A DNA stretch of 64,000 bases from Paenibacillus andongensis (GTDB taxonomy: Bacteria > Bacillota > Bacilli > Paenibacillales > NBRC-103111). This document shows, piece after piece, positions 13,586 through 48,886 of this stretch (position 1 is the first letter of the stretch; every line of letters begins with the position of its first letter). The stretch lies in contig NZ_CP104467.1 of NCBI RefSeq assembly GCF_025369935.1, forward strand, positions 569,501 to 633,500, given 5' to 3'. Position numbers and translations under genes: made by a program. Under the pieces are notes generated by a model, which did no database searches, had not been told where the DNA came from, and saw only the letters and a program-made list of their open reading frames with translations.

Positions 13586-14845
13586 TTATGCCTGCTGAGC
13601 AGCATTTTTACCAGCCATAAAGCCCGTTGAAAAAGCCGCGGTAATGTTATAACCGCCTGTATAGCCGTGAATATCGAGGATTTCACCACAGAAATAAAGC
13701 CCATTCACCAGCTTCGATTGCATGGTGCTTGGATCGATTTCTTTCAATTGAACGCCGCCGCCTGTGACAAAGGCTTCCTCGAGGGAGAGTGTTCCTTTGA
13801 CGATAATAGGGAAAGCTTTCATCCGTTTGCACAGCTCGAGCCATTTTTGCTTCGGGATGTTGTCGTATGTAAGCTGATCGTCTAAGCCGGACTTCTCGAG
13901 CATGATCGGGATTAATCGATCGGATAAGAGAGGCTTAAGCACGTTTTTGATCGCTTTTTTGGCTTCAGCTTTGGCGAGAGCCATGCTTTGGTTGTAAACT
14001 TCGTCCGTGCTTAGATCCGGAAAGAGATCCACAGTGAGCAAGACTTCTTTGCGCTCTGATTTGTTGAGCTCTTTCACGACGAACTGACTACAGCGCAGCG
14101 CAATCGGCCCCGACAAACCAAAATGCGTAAAAAGCATATCGCCGCGATGTGAAATGATCGACTTCCCTTTGGCGTTCCACACGCTGAGCGTCACGTCACG
14201 CAAGGAAAGTCCTTGCAGCTCACGGCTGCGGATAAAAGCTTCCTTCGAGGTTAACGGAACCTCGGTCGGAAAGAGCTGCGTGATGGTGTGGCCACCAGCT
14301 TCGGCCCAAGCATAACCGTCTCCTGTTGAGCCGGTATGCGGGACAGAGCATCCGCCGGAAGCAATGATGACAGCTTTGCTGTTCATCGTTTCGCCGGACT
14401 GCAGACGGACGCCTTGGACGCTGCCGTCCTTGTACAAGACCATCTTGACCGGACTGTTCGTCCGGATCTCGACACCTTGCCTGCGAACTTGGCCGATCAA
14501 CGCGTCTACGACGGTTTTGGCCTTGTCGCTAACGGGGAACATGCGACCGTTGTCCTCTTCCTTCAGGCGGATGCCGAGATTTTCAAAGAAATCAATGATG
14601 TCCTTATTGCTGAAATGGGTTAAAGCACTATATAAGAAGCGCCCGTTGCCTGGAATATGCTTGATCAATTCATCCATGTCTTTGTTGTTCGTTACGTTGC
14701 ATCTGCCGCCGCCGGATATCCCGAGCTTACGCCCCAGCTTGTCCCCTTTATCCACCAAAAGCACCTTCGCGCCATCTGCACTCGCAGCAATGCTGGCCAT
14801 AAGCCCAGCGGAACCGCCGCCAATTACAATTACATCATATGTCAT
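13586..14845 (-). CDS. NAD(P)/FAD-dependent oxidoreductase, BaiN/YhiN (HI0933) family
   Basis: 419 residues from ATG 14845 ([11 protein letters not shown]); a GTAGGGG ribosome site lies upstream and the longer in-frame version to 14869 is not needed. The Rossmann dinucleotide motif [10 protein letters not shown] and the family signature [16 protein letters not shown] are both present, as is the C-terminal [18 protein letters not shown]-contact segment. The family is a widespread flavoprotein of largely unknown substrate; BaiN is reported in bile-acid dehydroxylation but most members have no assigned reaction. Monocistronic, convergent with the symporter. Confidence 0.88.
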
Positions 14846-39183: not shown

Positions 39184-39873
39184 ATGTTTCGTAAAATTCT
39201 TTATGTGACTTTGACGCTGCCTTTGCTGCTTTGTTTGTGGCAGGTACAGCCCGCCTATTCGTACCCTGAAAGTGAAGATGGGGGGGAATTACCTCCTACG
39301 TATAGTATGGCAAGAAATGCAGGCCCTGTGGAAGGAACAGCTCAAGCTGAACTAGCTCAGCCTAGGACGCAGTATCAAGTGGACCGAGGCGATACGCTGT
39401 TCAAAATTGCACGTGATTTTGGCGTAACCGTAGACGACCTTATCAACTCTAACAATATTCAAAATCCGAACCAACTAACGATTGGTCAAAGTTTAACGAT
39501 TCCGAAGAATGAATCAGAGATTGGTTTACCAAATGGTCAAAAGAAAATTATCAAAAAAGTGTTGAACACAACCCTTACAGCTTATACGGCTGGCTTTGAA
39601 TCAACAGGCAAAAAGGCTTCCCATCCCATGTATGGCATCACATTTAGTGGTCTTAAAGCCAAAGAAGGACGCACGATCGCCGTGGATCCTGCTGTAATCC
39701 CTCTAGGTTCAACGGTGTTCATTGAAGGTATCGGCATTCGTAAAGCGGAGGATATCGGTTCGGCTATTCGCGGTTCTAGAATTGATGTGTTCATGAATGA
39801 TTTGAATGAGGCTCAGGATTTTGGCGTGAAAAAGAACGTGAAAGTTTATTTGCTAGATAGAGAGAATGTTTAA
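39184..39873 (+). CDS. Secreted LysM-3D domain wall protein (YocH-like)
   Basis: 229 residues: signal peptide (about 1-26), one LysM wall-binding motif (YQVDRGDTLFKIARDFGVTVDDLI, about 62-110) and a C-terminal 3D (double-psi beta-barrel) domain with the Asp signatures TAYT, IAVDPAVIPLGS and EDIGSAIRGSRIDVFM. Relatives such as YocH and Sps/MltA-like proteins act as peptidoglycan hydrolases or lytic transglycosylases. AAGAGGAGG ribosome site. Usual DTGGAIKG motif appears as EDIGSAIRG, one Gly replaced by Ser. Confidence 0.9.
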   Translation: MFRKILYVTLTLPLLLCLWQVQPAYSYPESEDGGELPPTYSMARNAGPVEGTAQAELAQPRTQYQVDRGDTLFKIARDFGVTVDDLINSNNIQNPNQLTIGQSLTIPKNESEIGLPNGQKKIIKKVLNTTLTAYTAGFESTGKKASHPMYGITFSGLKAKEGRTIAVDPAVIPLGSTVFIEGIGIRKAEDIGSAIRGSRIDVFMNDLNEAQDFGVKKNVKVYLLDRENV

Positions 39874-40046: not shown

Positions 40047-42302
40047 TTAATTTGAGTGTACAGGCTGACCGTCTTTAAACTCGCCTTCAAAATCGAGTTT
40101 GCCATCTTCATAATACTTTCCCTTGCCATTGAATCTTCCTTGAACCTCGTAACCCTCATAAATTAGTTTGCCGTTATCTTTAATACTTGTCACATATCCG
40201 TCTGGAATCCCGTTCTTGAATTGTCCAATCAGAACGTCACCAGTCCGGTCTCTACCCATAAGTTCTCCATTAAAATAAATGGTTCCCCAGCCCACAACAT
40301 TATCATTAATGAACTCGGCATCGTACCAGATTGTGCCATCTTCGTGATAGAGCTTCCCTTTTCCGTACATATGCCCGTCTTTAAGCTGACCTTCATAAAG
40401 CAAGTTGCCGGCTTTGTCGTACAGCTTGCCTTCCGTTGCAGGGTCATAGAGATATACGGCTTTGAGGTTCGCATCCCACACCACTTTTCGACCGGAAGCT
40501 TCACCAACCAATCTAAGAGGGACGAACGTGTACCCCTTTTGAAGGTAAGGGGCTGTTGGCAGTTCGGATGTCTTTTCATTAACGGTTGCTTGCGACTGTC
40601 CTAATGTGAGACTAATCGACGTTCCCTCTTTGCTGCCTGTAACCGTTTGGGATGCTTCGTCCCAATTTACTTGCAAACCCAGCTTTTCGAAAATAGGTCG
40701 AAACTCAACCGTTGTAGAACTGTCCTTAAGTTGAGGCTGTTCGTGGAAGATTACTTCCTCTCCGTCAAGATAAACACGAATAGGTTTGTCTGCGTTCACT
40801 TGCGTAATGGTTTTCCGCATCCAATAGTCCCGGAGGGAAGCTGCATTCATATCTTGATAAAGCACTGCGTAAACCCCGCCGCTATGAATTTGGGTACGAA
40901 GAAGTTGATTTTTTTCCTCGATAATCCCCCCTGCATAGATCCATTTGCCCTCAACGAGTTTATAAATTCCCAGCTTGCTAAGCTGATCGGAAGGGACACG
41001 AGATGGCATATAGGCCATTTTTAGGACATGGTAATCGAATGCTTCTTGTACGTCGACCGACCATGGGAGGCTCACCATTTTCTGTTCCGGTTGAAGAGCT
41101 TTGGTCAGTTCCAGTTTCGGACCTTCCACTGTATACCGAATGCTTGTATAATCGCCCCCTTTATAGGAAAACGGATTCTCGAACGGAGAGGATAAAATAA
41201 CCGCGCGATCGGAAGTCGCCAACTCGTGCACGCTGCTCGGACTGCTTCCGCCGAAGAAACCCGTCACTTGTTCAGGTATTTTATCTGCATAAGGGACAGC
41301 TGAAACTAGTGTATCCTGAATGGCGTTACCTTCACCTGTAGATTGAAGGGTTCGAAGAATCAGATTGTTATCCACGTTTTTCAAAATAATTGTGCTTCCG
41401 GTAACACCCAATAGCTTCTCGCCTTGATCGGCTGCTACATCGGCTTGCTTGTTTTGCAAGTTTGCTGCCATCACCACTTTATGTCCATCTTTCTCAACAG
41501 TCCATGCCGCAATTTCCTTACTTACGAAAATATCGAGAGGGATAGCTACCTTGTCAAATAGGCTAAGTACACTAGGTAGTGAATCCGGTTGAGTAACGTC
41601 GATCATTCTCAATTGAAATTTTAGTTGATTGTAGGGCTGTTGAATCCATACGACGTATTTGCCGTTGAATGCGACTGGATGACTGTTGTATAAACTGCCA
41701 TCATTTTTATCCCACAGAACTCGTAAAGTCTTGCTTGCAATGTCGTAAAGCTTAAGCCTATTCTCCGAAGAACCATAATAGGCGACTTGGCCGTTCGCCA
41801 AAGTAGCATCTTGACCTTTTCCAATGATATTTGTTTCCTTAGTTGTCATATTGTACACATTAAGAGTGCTTGTAGATTTATCTTTGTAGACTATGTATTC
41901 GCCGTCCGTTTGAAGATCTTCATAATAGCCCGGCTTGACATCTGCTTGGGTAGATTCGCCGGTTTGAAGATTAACCATTATAATAATTTTTTGACTATCC
42001 AGATATATGGCATAATTATTCGCTGCCGATAATTTTGCTTTGTAGGTCTGGGTCTCGGTTAGTTGTTTTAATTCGCCGCTATACAAATCCCGGGCGAACA
42101 CTTGATAGAATTTGTTCTCGTCATCTCCCATCCAAACCATCTTGGAATCGGTAATGATCGGAAACTCAGGTACCGAGTAGTCTGTTGAGTTATCCTTTTT
42201 GGTGAATGTTGCAGCACTTACATGCACTTCCGGCAAGAAGGACAGCGAGCCAAACGCCAGCATGAGCGCAAGTGCCCCTAACGCAATTTTTTTAAACTTC
42301 AC
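40047..42302 (-). CDS. Secreted beta-propeller protein with copper-amine-oxidase-type stalk domain and MORN repeats
   Basis: 751 residues; GTG start at 42302 after a GGGGGGG ribosome site. Signal peptide about 1-30. Residues 45-350 look like a WD40/TolB-type propeller (repeats such as VWMGDDENKFYQVFARDLYSGELKQLTE). A stalk domain of the Cu-amine-oxidase N-terminal type follows at about 530-635 (FRPIFEKLGLQVNWDEASQTVTG, FVPLRLVGEASGRKVVWD). The end has MORN repeats (LYEGQLKDGHMYGKGKLY, FEGEFKDGQ). No catalytic motif. It is behind a c-di-GMP-type riboswitch, so surface or matrix role is likely. Confidence 0.85.
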   Translation of the reverse strand: MKFKKIALGALALMLAFGSLSFLPEVHVSAATFTKKDNSTDYSVPEFPIITDSKMVWMGDDENKFYQVFARDLYSGELKQLTETQTYKAKLSAANNYAIYLDSQKIIIMVNLQTGESTQADVKPGYYEDLQTDGEYIVYKDKSTSTLNVYNMTTKETNIIGKGQDATLANGQVAYYGSSENRLKLYDIASKTLRVLWDKNDGSLYNSHPVAFNGKYVVWIQQPYNQLKFQLRMIDVTQPDSLPSVLSLFDKVAIPLDIFVSKEIAAWTVEKDGHKVVMAANLQNKQADVAADQGEKLLGVTGSTIILKNVDNNLILRTLQSTGEGNAIQDTLVSAVPYADKIPEQVTGFFGGSSPSSVHELATSDRAVILSSPFENPFSYKGGDYTSIRYTVEGPKLELTKALQPEQKMVSLPWSVDVQEAFDYHVLKMAYMPSRVPSDQLSKLGIYKLVEGKWIYAGGIIEEKNQLLRTQIHSGGVYAVLYQDMNAASLRDYWMRKTITQVNADKPIRVYLDGEEVIFHEQPQLKDSSTTVEFRPIFEKLGLQVNWDEASQTVTGSKEGTSISLTLGQSQATVNEKTSELPTAPYLQKGYTFVPLRLVGEASGRKVVWDANLKAVYLYDPATEGKLYDKAGNLLYEGQLKDGHMYGKGKLYHEDGTIWYDAEFINDNVVGWGTIYFNGELMGRDRTGDVLIGQFKNGIPDGYVTSIKDNGKLIYEGYEVQGRFNGKGKYYEDGKLDFEGEFKDGQPVHSN

Positions 42303-42367
42303 GTTGAAATACCCCCCCTTTTTTTATTAAAACCCTATAAATTCCGTGCATGCAAAAAAGCCAAACT

Positions 42368-42450
42368 ATAGAGCGACCCGGCTATCATATCCCGAAGGGG
42401 ACGTAGACCCGTAGCTTTGCGACTCCGGCTTTCGCGCGAATGTGCCTTTG
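42368..42450 (-). promoter_or_regulatory. c-di-GMP-I (GEMM) riboswitch, leftward, diverged
   Basis: Read leftward: GGCACATTCG-CGCGAAAGCC, then TCGCAAAGCTACGGGTCTA, and a closing AGCCGGGTCGC. The GEMM core elements (GAAA tetraloop, CGCAAAGC, CGGGTCTA and a GCCGGG strand) are in order, but the first stem is poorly paired compared with the two rightward copies. It is followed by a GGCTTTTTT element before the gene at 42302. Confidence 0.7.
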
Positions 42451-42787
42451 ATCTTATTGTATTGGCTTAAACAGGTATGCTACCCTTAACCATTATATGG
42501 TATTTGTGTTAATTCTACAATATACGACATATAGTCTAATACTTATTTGAAAGATTTATTTGTTCCGCTTATAGTTCTCACGAAGGGGATGGGGAAGAAC
42601 ATCCCAATTACCTCGCTATAGTACTACCCGGTTTGGGATTCAGTCGTAAGTATTTCAAAATGGAATTTAAAAATAATTTGTCGAAAATGGAAAATATTTG
42701 TTTCCTATTAAATTAATTAAGTATATAATTGTTGCTAGGCAATTAGAACTATTCGATAGGTCCTAGAGTCATTCCGAGAATAAGAAA

Positions 42788-42893
42788 CGGCAAATCCGTC
42801 CGAAAGGCGGAGACGCAAAGCCACGGGTCTAAGCAAGGGCATTCCTTGTACGACAGCCGGGCCGCCTACATTCCTTTTGGAGTGGCTTTTTTT
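42788..42893 (+). promoter_or_regulatory. c-di-GMP-I (GEMM) riboswitch with terminator-like platform
   Basis: The aptamer has GGCAAATCCGTC-CGAAAG-GCGGAGACGCAAAGCC, CACGGGTCTAAG, a second hairpin (CAAGG..CCTTG) and GACAGCCGGGCC. The CGAAAG loop, the A-minor GACGCAAAGCC strand and the receptor GGGTCTAA are all canonical. A following hairpin with a seven-T run (about 42860-42893) looks like an intrinsic terminator, so ligand binding should change read-through. Controls the SLH surface protein at 42931. Confidence 0.88.
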
Positions 42894-42930
42894 ATTGCCT
42901 TTATATCAAAGTAATAGAGAGGAAGATTAT

Positions 42931-45900
42931 ATGTTGGCAAGGTTGCTGGGGAAAATTGTATTTATTGTTATGTTTTTGACCGTTCAAATCGTATCTTTCT
43001 CAGGTTTAGCGCAAGCAGAAAACCAACCAGCATTACGTGACATTAATGGGTATTGGGCAGAGGATGCCATAAACGAATGGATCGGAAATGGATTGATTTC
43101 GGGCTATGCCGATCAAACCTTTCAACCCGATAAAGTCATTACCAGGGCGGAATTCATATTACTTGTCAACAAGGCATTTGGGTATCTCCATAAAGATGAC
43201 CAAACCTTCAAAGATGTTTCTCTGGAAAAATGGTTCTATAACGATGTGGCCAAAGCAAAATATGCCGGCTATATTTCCGGGTTCGATGACGGCTCCTTTC
43301 GTCCAGATCAACCGATTAGCAGAGAACAGGCTGCCAAAATCATCTATCAACTTATACAATTAAAAGACGTGTTACCAAAGAGTGATACGCGAACGTTTCT
43401 CGATGAGCAGCAAATGTCTGACTGGAGCAAGCCTTACATAAAAGCAGTCGCCTCGGAGGGTTATCTTAAAGGATATCCTGATCAGAGCTTCCGTCCTCAG
43501 AAATCCATTACAAGAGCAGAAGCCGTAGTGATGCTAGATAATGCCGTAGGGCATTTGATCCATAAGCCTGGAACTTATACTCCAAAAGCTGATGTTGAAG
43601 GGAATATGACGGTCAACAGCGGCGGTGTCACTATAAAAAATGCTGTGATCAAAGGCGATCTCATCTTGGCAGCGGGGATAGGGGAGGGGGAAGTGTTCCT
43701 TGATCACGTGACAGTAAAGGGAAGAACGATTGTGAATGGGGGCGGAGAAAACAGCATTGAAATTCAAGATTCAACCCTCAATCAGATGGTGGTTCAAAAG
43801 GACTTCGGCAGAGTCAGAGTTTTTACTAAAGGCTCTACGATAATAAGCGATACCATTATCAAATCGGGTGCGAAATTAGAACAAGAGCAAGGAAACGAGG
43901 GCTTCCAATCTGTTTCCGTGCAAGGAACGACTGTGAATGATGTCGTTCAGTTAGTAGGTACATTTGTGAAAGTTGACCTGAAGTCGACGGTAACTGTCGA
44001 GGTTTCCAGTCAATCCGTTGTCACCTTGCTTGAAACGCAAGCAGGTTCGGAAGGCTCAGGAATCAAGATGCTGGGCAATGCCATATTGGAGCAGATCATT
44101 TTACAATCAGCCGCGAAAGTGACGGGAGAAGGCTCGATACTTAATGCGGTGATTAAGGTGGAAGGCGTAAGCTTTGAGCAAATTGTAAAGAAATATACAC
44201 TTGGCGATCTGGTAAAACTCGTCGTAATTGGCGGTAAGGAAGTTACAGGAAACTCTCCGGTTACTACACCTGGATCAACGAACATATCTCCTGTTCCGAA
44301 TGAGGACAGCCCGGGAGGAGGTGTACCTCCTGGGAAGCCGACAGGTGGAGAACCGGATACTGAGCCGGGAAATGTAGAGGATATTAATGCTGCTTTTATC
44401 ATACAAAACAAGGTATACACACTGTACCCAGCCATGGCAGATTATTCGACGGTTCAATGGGACGTTTCAAACACGGTTACACAGGATACATACCAGACCG
44501 AATATAGTGGGACGGTAGAAGACGTAGGAATCTACAGCATTATAGGCGGATCGGTTTCTCCAGCTCCGTATGACGTAACCAAACGAAATTCAACAAAGCA
44601 TTATTCCGGGGTTCTGTTATCCAGCATTACTGTTAACGAAAGCGTGTATGCTCAGGTTTATTATGTTGGCAACGAGATGATTTCTTATCAAATCAATGGC
44701 AGTTACGCTGTCCATGATCTAGGTAATCAGCTGACAGAACAGGCGGTGCCGCTCGCTGCAGGGGATAGGATTACGCTCGTTTACGGAAGTCAGTATCTTG
44801 TTTTTGCAACATGGAACGGAAGTGATTGGGAACTTGATGGGATTTATGATCAACTTGAGTCTCCAACTGGTCTAAAAGCATCCACAGTATCGAATAGGGA
44901 GATCGCTTTGCAATGGAACCCAGTTGCGAATGCGGACCAGTACCATATTTATTACAGCGCAACTGCTACTGGCAAGTTTGTTCCCTTGGAGGATCAAAAT
45001 GGTAAACCGATTACGGTAACCGGAACGACCTATGTCGATAGCACGAATCTTCCACATACGACACGATATTATGTCGTTACATCAGCAATGGATAGAATTG
45101 GCGTGGAATCCAGACCAAGCAGCATTGCTTTTGCTACAACTTATTATAATGCACACATAGCTCTGGATTTTGAGATCACGAATACGTTGAAACATCCATC
45201 GGAGCCAATTCTCTATATCACAGATAAAACGAACAAAAAGCTTTATCGCGTCAATTACGAAACAGGTGATAAAACCTCCATTGCGTTTGACCTAGCACCG
45301 GAGAGTCTCACATATGCAGACGGTAAAATCTACGTTTCCTTGCTAAAAGCGGAACATTCTTCCTATACGTATATTGCACAGCAACAAGGCGCAATTGCGG
45401 TTGTGAATGCGGCTACCCTTACGCTTGAAGGAACACATAATATTGCGATTGACCCCTTTGATGTCGCAGTCGTTTCCGGTTATCTCTACGTGTCATCTGG
45501 TTCAGGGCAGTGGACGAAGATTAAGTCATATGATTTGAAGACCTTTGCGGAGGTGGGTTCAAGCGATATTCGCCAACAGAGTTATATCCAAACGCATCCT
45601 TTAGGGAATAAGCTCTATACGATCACAACGGATACGTCACCGAGAGACCTTGGAGCGTATAACGTAACGAACGGACAATACGTCGAGCCAGGCGGTTACG
45701 ATTCTCCGTACCATGGCGATTATGCAATGTCGACGAATTTCACCATTTCTCCGGACGGTGCCTACATCTTTAACGGTTCCGGCAACGTATTTATGGCAAC
45801 AAGCAATAAGTACGACGATATGAAATTTGTATACGGACTTGGACAAGCATATGACGGTATTACCTTTGATCTGTCAAAAAACATTTTTTACACAGCGAAG

Positions 45901-46965
45901 AACAATGCGATACAAGTCTATGATTACACCAATTTTAATAAAAGCGGGCTCTATCACTTGGACGGTACAGCCAAGAATGTATTTAATGGTACCAATCGAT
46001 TGATTTCTGTATCTACGCTAGACGGAAAGAATATCGTCGAAATTGTAGAAAAGAATTCAATCGAAGCGATTGCCCCTATTGCGGTGCCTGGTGTCCAGTT
46101 GGACGGCAGAGTTGTCGACATTGCTTACGATTCCGCAAATAAGAAAGCTTATGCCATCGACGAAGCGTTCCGCAATCTATATGTGGTTGATCTTCAATCA
46201 CAGACGATTGTAAAAACAGTCAAGCTTCCATATCGTCCTGCCGGACTTACTATATCGGAAGACGGTTCAAGTCTCTTTATCGTGAATGATGATCTAAATA
46301 ATCTCATAACGGAAGTGCGCATAACTGATTTACAAATTTTAAGGCACTTGACTTACACGTCAACTGTTGATTCCGGTGACATCGCTCATAGACATATCTA
46401 CCATAAAAACGGGATTCTGTATGTTGTGATGGGTGATTGGGAGCCGACGCTGCTGGCGTTCAATTCGACTTCCTTTGCAGCCGTAAACTACGGAACTGTG
46501 ATCAAAGGGGTTGGCGATCTGGCTTTCTCCAGCAAAAAGAGCACATTCTTTACATGGTATCAGTCTGGCTGGAATGCAGGAAATGCCGGCTCCAACGTAT
46601 TGGCATATTCCGTTAGTGGCAATAGCGTAACCAAATCAGGCGAATCCAGCCTAAGTTACCCGAACTTCTTGAGAGATCCCTTGGATACTCCGGTTCTATT
46701 GTTGGAAAATCAAGGGAAACTGGTCGTAAAGAATAAGGTCCTTGATCTCAATAATGTTGCGCAGGTAATCAGTACATTGCCAGAACCGATTTATGCAGCG
46801 AGTGCTAATGGAGAGCTGCTGGTTGGTAAAAATGGGATATACAGTGCGGCGACCTATCAGAAGGTTGATTCTTTGGCGCTGGGGACAGCAACAGAAATCT
46901 TCTTTGATCAGAATAGAATGCTGTATTATTATGTAAATGGTGCGTTATTGTCTATACAGAAGTAA
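42931..46965 (+). CDS. Large SLH surface protein with polymer-forming, Fn3 and propeller domains
   Basis: 1344 residues from ATG 42931 (AGAGAGG upstream), not the earlier ATG 42877 inside the riboswitch platform. Signal peptide about 1-32, then three SLH modules at the N-terminus (RDINGYWAEDAI, FKDVSLEKWFYNDV, LDEQQMSDWSKPYI). A right-handed beta-helix-like region follows (GVTIKNAVIKGDLILA, VFLDHVTVKGRTIV), then a Pro/Gly-rich hinge (about 450-490), an unrecognised beta domain, a fibronectin-III module (about 655-735), and a YncE-like seven-bladed propeller (about 755-1344). Likely an adhesin or matrix-binding protein on the S-layer. c-di-GMP riboswitch in its leader. Confidence 0.88.
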   Translation: MLARLLGKIVFIVMFLTVQIVSFSGLAQAENQPALRDINGYWAEDAINEWIGNGLISGYADQTFQPDKVITRAEFILLVNKAFGYLHKDDQTFKDVSLEKWFYNDVAKAKYAGYISGFDDGSFRPDQPISREQAAKIIYQLIQLKDVLPKSDTRTFLDEQQMSDWSKPYIKAVASEGYLKGYPDQSFRPQKSITRAEAVVMLDNAVGHLIHKPGTYTPKADVEGNMTVNSGGVTIKNAVIKGDLILAAGIGEGEVFLDHVTVKGRTIVNGGGENSIEIQDSTLNQMVVQKDFGRVRVFTKGSTIISDTIIKSGAKLEQEQGNEGFQSVSVQGTTVNDVVQLVGTFVKVDLKSTVTVEVSSQSVVTLLETQAGSEGSGIKMLGNAILEQIILQSAAKVTGEGSILNAVIKVEGVSFEQIVKKYTLGDLVKLVVIGGKEVTGNSPVTTPGSTNISPVPNEDSPGGGVPPGKPTGGEPDTEPGNVEDINAAFIIQNKVYTLYPAMADYSTVQWDVSNTVTQDTYQTEYSGTVEDVGIYSIIGGSVSPAPYDVTKRNSTKHYSGVLLSSITVNESVYAQVYYVGNEMISYQINGSYAVHDLGNQLTEQAVPLAAGDRITLVYGSQYLVFATWNGSDWELDGIYDQLESPTGLKASTVSNREIALQWNPVANADQYHIYYSATATGKFVPLEDQNGKPITVTGTTYVDSTNLPHTTRYYVVTSAMDRIGVESRPSSIAFATTYYNAHIALDFEITNTLKHPSEPILYITDKTNKKLYRVNYETGDKTSIAFDLAPESLTYADGKIYVSLLKAEHSSYTYIAQQQGAIAVVNAATLTLEGTHNIAIDPFDVAVVSGYLYVSSGSGQWTKIKSYDLKTFAEVGSSDIRQQSYIQTHPLGNKLYTITTDTSPRDLGAYNVTNGQYVEPGGYDSPYHGDYAMSTNFTISPDGAYIFNGSGNVFMATSNKYDDMKFVYGLGQAYDGITFDLSKNIFYTAKNNAIQVYDYTNFNKSGLYHLDGTAKNVFNGTNRLISVSTLDGKNIVEIVEKNSIEAIAPIAVPGVQLDGRVVDIAYDSANKKAYAIDEAFRNLYVVDLQSQTIVKTVKLPYRPAGLTISEDGSSLFIVNDDLNNLITEVRITDLQILRHLTYTSTVDSGDIAHRHIYHKNGILYVVMGDWEPTLLAFNSTSFAAVNYGTVIKGVGDLAFSSKKSTFFTWYQSGWNAGNAGSNVLAYSVSGNSVTKSGESSLSYPNFLRDPLDTPVLLLENQGKLVVKNKVLDLNNVAQVISTLPEPIYAASANGELLVGKNGIYSAATYQKVDSLALGTATEIFFDQNRMLYYYVNGALLSIQK

Positions 46966-47001
46966 AATAATAATGACCCGTGAGAGATATGTAGTTCTCT
47001 T

Positions 47002-47032
47002 AGGTCAACCAGTACTCTGGTTGGCCTTTTTT
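47002..47032 (+). terminator. Terminator after the SLH surface protein
   Basis: AGGTCAACCAG / CTGGTTGGCCT stem with TACT loop, followed by TTTTTT. Confidence 0.85.
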
Positions 47033-47183
47033 GTATGAAATCACACACTTTGCGTGCAAAGTCCTTCTTTTTTGTAGAAATATGTTGAATTTCATTATTT
47101 AATGGAATACCATGGAAAATAGATAGTACTTTACAACTAGAAATAATCACTGAAACACACCTAATATCAAGCAATAATGAACA

Positions 47184-47290
47184 AAGGCAAATCCATCGAA
47201 AGGTGGAGACGCAAAGCCACGGGTCTAAGCCATGAGTCAAATCTCTTGGGATGATAGCCGGGTTACTCTTTAGAGGCTTGTTTTTTTATT
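47184..47290 (+). promoter_or_regulatory. c-di-GMP-I (GEMM) riboswitch before a small orphan gene
   Basis: GGCAAATCCATCGAAAGGTGGAGACGC, AAAGCCACGGGTCTAAGC, a middle hairpin and GATAGCCGGG give a complete aptamer. A T-run (TTTTTTTATTGCC) ends the platform, nearly identical to the end of the 42788 riboswitch. Gene 47318 follows directly. Confidence 0.88.
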
Positions 47291-47317
47291 GCCAAAAAAG
47301 GAAGGGAGGGGCGAAAA

Positions 47318-47560
47318 ATGGCAACATATCTGATGTTGATTAAAGTGTTCGACGATGCCGAGAAGGTTATTTATAAATTTGGTCCAACAGAAGAAAGTAT
47401 GGGTGAAATTGAATTTAATCTAGTTAATGAAGAGTTTCGGCAGATAGAGAGAATCCCGGGTACTACCAAAGACCATATGTTCATGAGGGCTGCTTCGGCT
47501 ATTGCAAGATGTTATACGGAGGGAGAGGGCTTTCCGGATAGAACTTTTTTTGCTTCATAA
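47318..47560 (+). CDS. Small protein of unknown function under riboswitch control
   Basis: 80 residues from ATG 47318, with a strong GGGAGGGG ribosome site. Soluble, no signal peptide or membrane helix. Sequence features: TYLMLIKVFDDAEKVIYKFG and a central RQIERIPGTTKDHMFMRAASAI, then CYTEGEGFPDRTFFAS. I recognise no family. It has its own aptamer and its own terminator at 47605, so it is expressed alone in response to c-di-GMP and could be an effector or regulator. Confidence 0.7.
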   Translation: MATYLMLIKVFDDAEKVIYKFGPTEESMGEIEFNLVNEEFRQIERIPGTTKDHMFMRAASAIARCYTEGEGFPDRTFFAS

Positions 47561-47883: not shown

Positions 47884-48180
47884 ATGAAAAGAAATACAGG
47901 CTTAGCCGCTCTGCTAATCGCATTCGGTGCACTGATTCTGTTAAATAAGCTAGGCATTCACATGGGACCATTTATTGGCTCGGTGATGGGATACTTGATT
48001 CCAATAGGAATGGTCGGCCTTGGTTATGTAGGTATACAGAACGGCAGCAAAATCGGTTGGATTATTGCAGGGCTTGGCGGTATCATCCTGATTGGTAAAT
48101 TAGCTGGTTGGATCATCATTCTACTGGCGATTGGGTTGATCGGTTACGGAATTTCGATGTTGACAAGAAGAACGGTGTAA
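47884..48180 (+). CDS. LiaI/LiaF-TM-like small membrane protein
   Basis: 98 residues, almost entirely hydrophobic: about three or four helices (LAALLIAFGALILLN, GYLIPIGMVGLGYVGI, WIIAGLGGIILIG, WIIILLAIGLIGYGI) and a basic C-terminus. This is the LiaI/LiaF N-terminal type (DUF5668-like) that is transcribed with PspA-family genes in envelope-stress operons. It heads a four-gene operon with pspA, pspC and a second pspA. GGCGGTGACG region before ATG; no LiaRS genes nearby. Confidence 0.85.
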   Translation: MKRNTGLAALLIAFGALILLNKLGIHMGPFIGSVMGYLIPIGMVGLGYVGIQNGSKIGWIIAGLGGIILIGKLAGWIIILLAIGLIGYGISMLTRRTV

Positions 48181-48223
48181 GGCAATGAAACGAATACAGA
48201 GAGTGAAAAAGGTGGTATGAGAG

Positions 48224-48886
48224 ATGAGCCTACTTAGGCGAATGAGAGACATTACCGTAGCGACACTGAATGAACATCTGGAGCGATCGGAAGATCCGGT
48301 CCGCTTGATTGACCAGTACTTAGCAGCGCAGCGTGAGCAGCTTCAACAGTCCGAGAGACTGTATCAACAATGCGTAAGCCACGCAGCTTCACTCCGGCAG
48401 CAATATCTGACGGCGCTGGAAACCAAAGAGAAGCGCGAGCATCAAGCGTTGCTTGCTCTGAAGGCCGGCGAAGAACATATGGCAAGGATCGTGCTTCAAG
48501 AGAAGCTGCAAGCCGAAGAGAAAAGCGAGCAGTATCATGAGTTGTACGATCAAGCGAAGCAGTCCATCCTTGATTTGGATGAAGAGCTGCAGCAGCTCAA
48601 AGCTGATTACAAAGAAGTGGCAGACAAACGCAGCTACTACTTAGCGCGAATGGAGTCCGCAAGGTTGCAGCAAAGATTGCATGCTCGCAGCAGTGTGGCG
48701 CAGGATGCGACACCACGGATGTTCGGTCGCTTGGAAGAGCGCGTTTCCGATATGGAGCTCCATGCAAGAACGCTTCGCGATGTAAGACGAATGGGGCGCG
48801 AAAGTTACTATAGCGGGGGCAACTCGGCCGTAGATGCTGAAATGGAAGCTCTGAGAAACAGACTGCAGCAGGAGGGAGCCAAGTAA
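48224..48886 (+). CDS. pspA: PspA/IM30-family phage-shock protein (first)
   Basis: 220 residues, nearly all coiled-coil helix, with N-terminal amphipathic start MSLLRRMRDITVATLNEHLERSEDPVRLIDQYL and conserved C-terminal FGRLEERVSDMELHARTL. PspA/Vipp1 proteins form rods or rings that support damaged membranes. Compared with the second copy at 49351 it is more Gln/Leu-rich and lower in identity. Second gene of the operon. Confidence 0.9.
   Translation: MSLLRRMRDITVATLNEHLERSEDPVRLIDQYLAAQREQLQQSERLYQQCVSHAASLRQQYLTALETKEKREHQALLALKAGEEHMARIVLQEKLQAEEKSEQYHELYDQAKQSILDLDEELQQLKADYKEVADKRSYYLARMESARLQQRLHARSSVAQDATPRMFGRLEERVSDMELHARTLRDVRRMGRESYYSGGNSAVDAEMEALRNRLQQEGAK

Follow-up and report, generated by a model that had tools for sequence, protein, structure and literature searches.

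What do three riboswitches for cyclic di-GMP (c-di-GMP), packed into about 5 kb of the Paenibacillus andongensis genome, control, and do they switch their genes together or against each other? The question was addressed in a window of 64,000 nt (positions 569501-633500 of the single 7.64-Mb contig). When this window was searched with cmscan at the Rfam gathering thresholds (35 bits for RF01051; 59 bits for RF03167, c-di-GMP-I-GGC), three matches were obtained, all of the c-di-GMP-I type. The first (42369..42456, minus strand, RF01051 62.1 bits) precedes the gene of a 751-aa protein with MORN-like repeats, the second (42779..42869, plus strand, RF01051 73.5 bits) that of a large SLH surface protein and the third (47177..47271, plus strand, RF01051 76.3 bits) that of an 80-aa protein; all three passed the RF01051 threshold. 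The third also passed the RF03167 cut-off (69 bits), yet its RF01051 score was higher; the other two reached 56.3 and 50.1 bits with RF03167, below the cut-off. An earlier note, made from the letters alone, had placed three GEMM/c-di-GMP-I elements before these genes, with coordinates no more than 24 nt off, and had called three in 5 kb unusual. The whole genome holds 14 RF01051 elements including these, and finding three of 14 inside 4,902 bp had p = 0.00044 in a simulation with uniform placement, in line with that view. On balance, we favour the reading that the three are transcriptional ON switches which co-induce the MORN, SLH and orphan immunity genes in a variable, Rhs-linked island. The riboswitches are ordinary in their class; what stands out is that they recur as apparent ON cassettes throughout a variable toxin-immunity island and that one of them precedes a putative orphan immunity gene.

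All three elements carried the 5' arm of a terminator inside the aptamer, with the U-run at +10 or +18. The terminator of the SLH element (GGCCGCC...GUGGCU plus a U7 run; 42860..42893, plus strand; -9.5 kcal/mol) overlaps the aptamer end, and that of the MORN element (AGCCGGG...UUUGGCU plus a U-run; 42354..42383, minus strand; -6.2 kcal/mol) overlaps the 3' strand of P3 in the predicted off state. The expression platform of the 80-aa element (47272..47293, plus strand) comprises the hairpin 3' arm, a U7 run and ATTGCC, the 3' strand of an extended P1; its hairpin was weak in the short forms (-3.1), or one long hairpin could form (-11.3). A separate strong hairpin starting at +5 to +33 (-10.5 to -15.1) was found in seven of the 11 other elements of the genome; L011 was of the overlap type, L006 and L010 had no clear terminator and L008 was ambiguous. 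Automatic classification of 74 GEMM loci (14 from this genome, 30 from the family and 30 from the clade) was noisy, with odd long hairpins, false early U-runs and four loci without a core match, and the family and clade counts were not used.

The 5' flank of the SLH element (42765..42779, plus strand) is complementary over 15 bp to the terminator 3' arm, an extended P1 and predicted antiterminator; when the 24 nt before the aptamer core were paired with that arm, none of 200 shuffles was as good. The flank of the 80-aa element (47171..47184, plus strand) is complementary to its platform from CUUG over the U-run to AUUGC; 2 of 200 shuffles were as good, and with a shorter arm window the flank ranked 7 of 17. 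The string TTTTTTTATTGCC, noticed earlier as a platform end, consists of the U-run and the last part of the extended P1 helix in this element; the two rightward copies, said to share nearly identical platform ends, do share the U-run plus ATTGCC, but their terminator sequences differ. Among 23 island-type elements from nine genomes, 13 had 10 or fewer of 200 shuffles as good, three had 11-18 and seven had more; 10 or fewer were also seen in two of the 11 other elements of P. andongensis (L006 and L011).

Flank swaps gave own-flank ranks (of 17) of 1, 1 and 1 for the SLH type, 3, 2 and 1 for the window-type MORN elements, 1 for the second MORN, 1 for L011, 1, 2, 1, 4 and 1 for cassettes of the P. 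phytorum type, and 2 each for x_79 and MORN_79; separate-terminator elements ranked 14, 14, 9, 14, 11, 16 and 15. With one representative per group (ranks of 16), the nine overlap-type elements stood at 1, 7, 2, 1, 1, 2, 1, 11 and 1 versus 11, 13, 7, 14, 11, 13 and 12 for the seven with separate terminators (p = 0.001). When the window reached past the U-run, the same comparison gave 1, 3, 2, 1, 1, 5, 2, 8 and 1 versus 9, 9, 11, 5, 10, 6 and 2 (p = 0.004); SLH_72 was left out of both flank-swap tests and L008 out of the one-per-group test. The pairing of flank and arm was kept with different letters among cassettes (GAGUCAUUCC/GGAGUGGCUU, AAGCCAA/UUGGCUU, AACCAAGC/GCUUGGUU and AACCAAUC/GGUUGGUU). 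Flank-terminator complementarity was mostly specific to the overlap type. Within the window, terminator overlap was common to all three elements (with the weak hairpin of the 80-aa element), and flank pairing was strong for SLH, fair for the 80-aa gene and weak for MORN.

c-di-GMP binds at the junction of P1 and the core, and since the flank extends P1, ON control is predicted. Without ligand, the P3 3' strand (in the SLH element, the aptamer 3' end) would pair with the sequence before the U-run and transcription would stop. With c-di-GMP, the folded aptamer would retain that strand, and the 5' flank would pair with the terminator 3' arm and the U-run as an extended-P1 antiterminator, allowing read-through. 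The MORN-repeat protein, the SLH surface protein and the candidate orphan immunity protein would then be co-induced. A c-di-GMP switch between surface states, as first proposed for this locus, is unsupported because all three elements share a layout (flank pairing being weak for MORN) that predicts co-induction.

The 80-aa protein (47318..47560, plus strand) matched nothing in Pfam or NCBIfam at E 0.1. Across 392 genomes from the order, its family gave 107 hits in 88; neither Pfam nor NCBIfam had a fitting family, and one member gave only chance-level matches under the cut-offs. Among 23 family loci (L180-L199 and L037-L039), the upstream open frame ended in one shared C-terminal domain in nine, and a fragment of this domain was seen in at least four (L037, L038, L039 and L182). 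WXG100 was matched in two of six scanned upstream proteins, one just above the Pfam cut-off and both below that of NCBIfam. We take the domain as putatively toxic because WXG100-like and Rhs-associated genes carry it at the C-terminus. When a profile of it was searched, 25 of 26 strong hits (E<1e-20) had an 80-family gene 5-106 nt downstream (15 of 15 at E<1e-50 and 10 of 11 between 1e-50 and 1e-20); eight of the linked hits had built the profile, and 17 of 18 were linked without them. Weaker hits had such a gene downstream in 8 of 52 cases, and the domain stood directly upstream of 32 of the 107 family genes. It had earlier been described as a small orphan protein, but many homologues in the order stand directly behind the toxin-like domain, and the 80-aa protein would probably serve as an orphan immunity protein.

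The other six genomes with a riboswitch-linked 80-aa gene gave no match to the toxin-like domain, and a fragment of it occurred in one of 30 genomes of the genus (G030). No Rfam match was obtained within about 1.5 kb on each side of 20 other family loci and no c-di-GMP riboswitch in L076-L078, indicating that linkage to a riboswitch is no general trait of the family. An AlphaFold model of the 80-aa protein, built from six near-identical sequences, had a mean pLDDT of 64.3 and was not used. In a sequence search of the PDB, the best E-values were 0.11 for the 80-aa profile and 0.76 for the toxin-domain profile.

The surroundings of the 80-aa gene were compared across the seven genomes that carry a close copy (89-100% identical), among them Paenibacillus alginolyticus, P. 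phytorum and Paenibacillus sp. V4I3, Root444D2 and Soil787. The flanks were constant in all seven, with a LysM-3D gene on one side and LiaF-like and PspA-like genes on the other, and a riboswitch preceded the 80-aa gene in all seven, including P. alginolyticus, which has neither MORN nor SLH. The MORN and SLH genes were present in some of the genomes and missing in others. In the window genome the island reads MORN, SLH, 80-aa gene; V4I3 (G053) and Root444D2 (G046) add a second MORN gene after these, and Root444D2 has a fourth riboswitch. In G054, SLH and the 80-aa gene stand behind a remnant, P. alginolyticus (G031) keeps the 80-aa gene only, P. phytorum (G039) has MORN, an Rhs tip, a leucine-rich repeat (LRR) gene, a 208-aa gene and the 80-aa gene, and the island of Soil787 (G048) spans about 44 kb. 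Among the matches listed from 104 genomes of the family, including this one, a riboswitch lay upstream of 8 of 10 MORN relatives (more than 710 of 751 residues aligned); the G051 copy and the second G053 copy lacked one.

Duplication of the rightward elements had been suspected. The two window copies alone give it little weight, being 60% identical over the aptamer and short flanks; for the island as a whole it is borne out, as cassettes heading different genes of the same genome in relatives were 81-91% identical. Island riboswitches also grouped together, apart from the other elements of this genome, in a midpoint-rooted tree of about 115 nt, a short sequence, without support values.

Rhs genes stood behind related cassettes in relatives. 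In Soil787, a riboswitch, MORN (921 aa), SLH (676 aa, three SLH stretches) and Rhs (2112 aa, 18 RHS stretches) follow one another in one direction, with gaps of 112 nt for the SLH gene and 16 nt for the Rhs gene, and the series may form an operon. Behind the Rhs gene, Rhs-tip-like fragments lie among transposase-like genes (both by eye), with the 80-aa gene at the far border; the Rhs core model matched two of five such fragments, both weakly (0.02 and 1.6e-4). In G044, a cassette 88% identical to the window 80-aa element over 118 nt, in a different neighbourhood (by eye), is followed by an SLH gene (657 aa, three stretches) whose end abuts a 2077-aa Rhs open frame (17 stretches). P. phytorum has a 299-aa Rhs tip (TIGR03696, 3.2e-10) behind a related cassette (83%). 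The window locus would be one version of an island that varies between genomes: its cassettes frequently bear a riboswitch of this kind, and its counterparts in relatives include Rhs genes, of the polymorphic-toxin type. The two Rhs proteins of P. andongensis (L214 3164-11233 and L215 2819-10645; open frames of 2690 and 2609 aa) also match SLH repeats.

Several results weigh against ON control and a toxin-immunity setting. Hairpins alone were matched by 8 of 100 shuffles for SLH, 10 for MORN and 30 for the 80-aa element; these shuffles keep base composition only, and with the closing pair allowed and not enforced, 4 of 23 elements show no hairpin. The MORN flank pairs over 7 bp and a few more pairs, at an ordinary energy (48 of 200 shuffles as good). 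In the flank swaps, the 80-aa type ranked 7, 10, 11, 7, 7, 10 and 10 and MORN_80 ranked 13, and the ambiguous L008, which was not in the one-per-group test, ranked 2. When the aptamer was forced, in a calculation without ligand energy, pairing before the U-run changed by only -0.22 (SLH), -0.20 (MORN) and -0.04 (80-aa). On the protein side, 75 of the 107 family hits had no match to the toxin-like domain directly upstream, and the window protein was only 40-49% identical to 13 aligned members from outside the clade. A profile search did not find the domain in the window genome, where the 80-aa gene has no toxin neighbour and is therefore an orphan at best. The constancy of this gene across the seven genomes is no evidence, because they were picked by it. 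Finally, no Rhs gene was found by motif in the 64-kb window, and the two Rhs cores of the genome lie elsewhere (3.93 and 5.47 Mb), none of the 14 GEMM elements being within 100 kb of either.

Some of these points would suit ordinary c-di-GMP-I riboswitches of mixed or OFF polarity on unrelated surface genes, with the cluster incidental and the 80-aa gene a housekeeping gene, an explanation we hold unlikely though the best of the alternatives. The small shift on forcing the aptamer fits it, and so do the family members without an upstream toxin domain, including L193, L197 and L198; these 80-family copies, conserved in other genomes of the order, stand beside a chemoreceptor-like gene (by eye) without a toxin neighbour. 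Members without toxin neighbours leave room for a different role. Against mixed or OFF polarity, complementarity between flank and terminator was mostly confined to the overlap type, the clustering had p = 4e-4 and cassettes were duplicated inside the island. Further, the PilZ-like element and L003 gained terminator pairing when the aptamer was forced (+0.33 and +0.22), unlike the island elements; this contrast is weak because four separate-type elements (L001, L007, L009 and L014) were about zero and L012 was at -0.16.

Co-inducing ON switches would also be lost if the RNAs had decayed or did not respond, acting mainly as constitutive attenuators. Bc1 of Bacillus thuringiensis binds c-di-GMP while its genes are unresponsive (PMC11218506). 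Damaged copies do occur in relatives: in G054 (L072), two GEMM elements (14091-14175 and 14395-14489) lie about 220 nt apart, and in the SLH element of this pair P3 is partly gone and the mismatched flank is that of the other type, as recombination would leave it; in G036 (L127, about 1500-1550), the 3' part of a cassette (P3 strand, terminator and U-run) stands alone without the 5' half. However, the window aptamers score well over the cut-off, and the 80-aa cassettes of the six other genomes are 94-97% identical to that of the window and above the RF03167 cut-off, making decay quite improbable here.

For the ligand contacts (G20, A47 and C92 in Vc2 numbering), GGC, CGCAAA and the C after P3 were visible in all three aptamers (by eye, in covariance alignments), a lead that these contacts may be kept. 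cGAMP-selective variants carry A at the G20 position, and all three elements keep G at the presumed equivalent of G20, so that sensing of 3',3'-cGAMP as in GEMM-Ib is very improbable, even with the 80-aa element fitting the variant family c-di-GMP-I-GGC.

The genes behind the three ON-switch candidates were broadly as first described: a secreted MORN-type protein, a large SLH protein and a small protein. The 751-aa protein (40047..42302, minus strand) has a signal-peptide-like start (by eye), a Cu-amine-oxidase-N domain above the cut-off and C-terminal MORN-like repeats below their own cut-off (20.2 of 22.5 bits); the label 'propeller' given to it had no Pfam support. The SLH protein (42931..46965, plus strand, 1344 aa) has three SLH stretches, an fn3 match under the cut-off and a propeller-like region. 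The island is bordered on the left by the LysM-3D gene (39184..39873, plus strand) and on the right by a 98-aa gene with a LiaF-TM domain (score at the cut-off) and a 220-aa PspA-like gene (by eye; together 47884..48886, plus strand).

Other elements of the genome precede, by names read from translations, a PilZ-like gene (L002), GGDEF-like genes (L001 and L012) and secreted proteins (L003 and L008). The latter two, at 245151 and 253748, form another GEMM pair about 8.5 kb apart, and the genes downstream have signal-peptide-like starts. L006 (5759079-5759174) showed strong flank complementarity (1 of 200 shuffles) without a terminator; its pairing lies near the ribosome-binding site, and it is perhaps a translational switch. 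A fifteenth match in the genome (L029, RF03167, 30.6 bits, under the cut-off) looked false and was dropped. In relatives, overlap-type GEMM elements stood before a gene resembling pilus or type II secretion ATPases (by eye) in G054 (L210 14696-14788, weak flank pairing) and G044 (L211 6752-6846, strong flank pairing), and the same platform may also switch pili. In Soil787 (L075 13585-13672), a GEMM element was followed by a gene reading like a polysaccharide polymerase or ligase (by eye).

Settling may be coupled by c-di-GMP to the display of surface proteins and to attack by, or protection from, contact toxins. More tentatively, and with somewhat less confidence than in the co-induction itself, we propose an Rhs island with duplicated extended-P1 ON riboswitches on its surface-display, Rhs-toxin and immunity cassettes, in which a biofilm signal would arm and protect the cell in contact competition without a protein regulator; in P. 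andongensis the toxin would be gone and an orphan immunity gene left under the switch. If true, c-di-GMP would act directly at the RNA level on an immunity gene and on a series of genes for a contact toxin, linking settling to weapons and shields for crowded surface growth. It would also point to a toxin-immunity pair for which Pfam and NCBIfam gave no match here, and a 'surface protein' locus would become a toxin island. The genome would also offer a clear test of how one riboswitch class may reach opposite polarities in one genome.

In the open-licence literature, a c-di-GMP riboswitch together with an immunity protein led to tfoY only, riboswitch control of a polymorphic toxin was not apparent, and nothing was found for GEMM or c-di-GMP riboswitches with an S-layer. 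Each system below is compared on the basis of parts of its source. In Vibrio cholerae, the riboswitch of tfoY acts upstream of antibacterial type VI secretion, as proposed for the island; however, it does so indirectly through the regulator TfoY, low c-di-GMP is the promoting condition, and the riboswitch does not sit on a toxin or immunity gene (PMC4858559). Orphan immunity genes of the type VI secretion system in Bacteroidales are kept without a cognate toxin, as the 80-aa gene would be, but they encode other proteins, and the abstract openings do not mention riboswitches (PMC12247911, PMC10470768). Three class I elements at one locus are described in PMC4759541, there in series in one leader, whereas the window elements are divergent with one per gene. 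In Clostridioides difficile, c-di-GMP co-ordinates surface structures through terminators, as proposed for the island, with class I as OFF and class II as ON switches, whereas class I in the window appears ON (PMC6366702). The Bc2 RNA of B. thuringiensis, a c-di-GMP-I ON switch before the cap adhesin gene, has no toxin or immunity context in the source passages, unlike the island; as predicted for the window elements, it is a class I ON switch, c-di-GMP relieving a terminator directly before a surface adhesin gene (PMC4933901).

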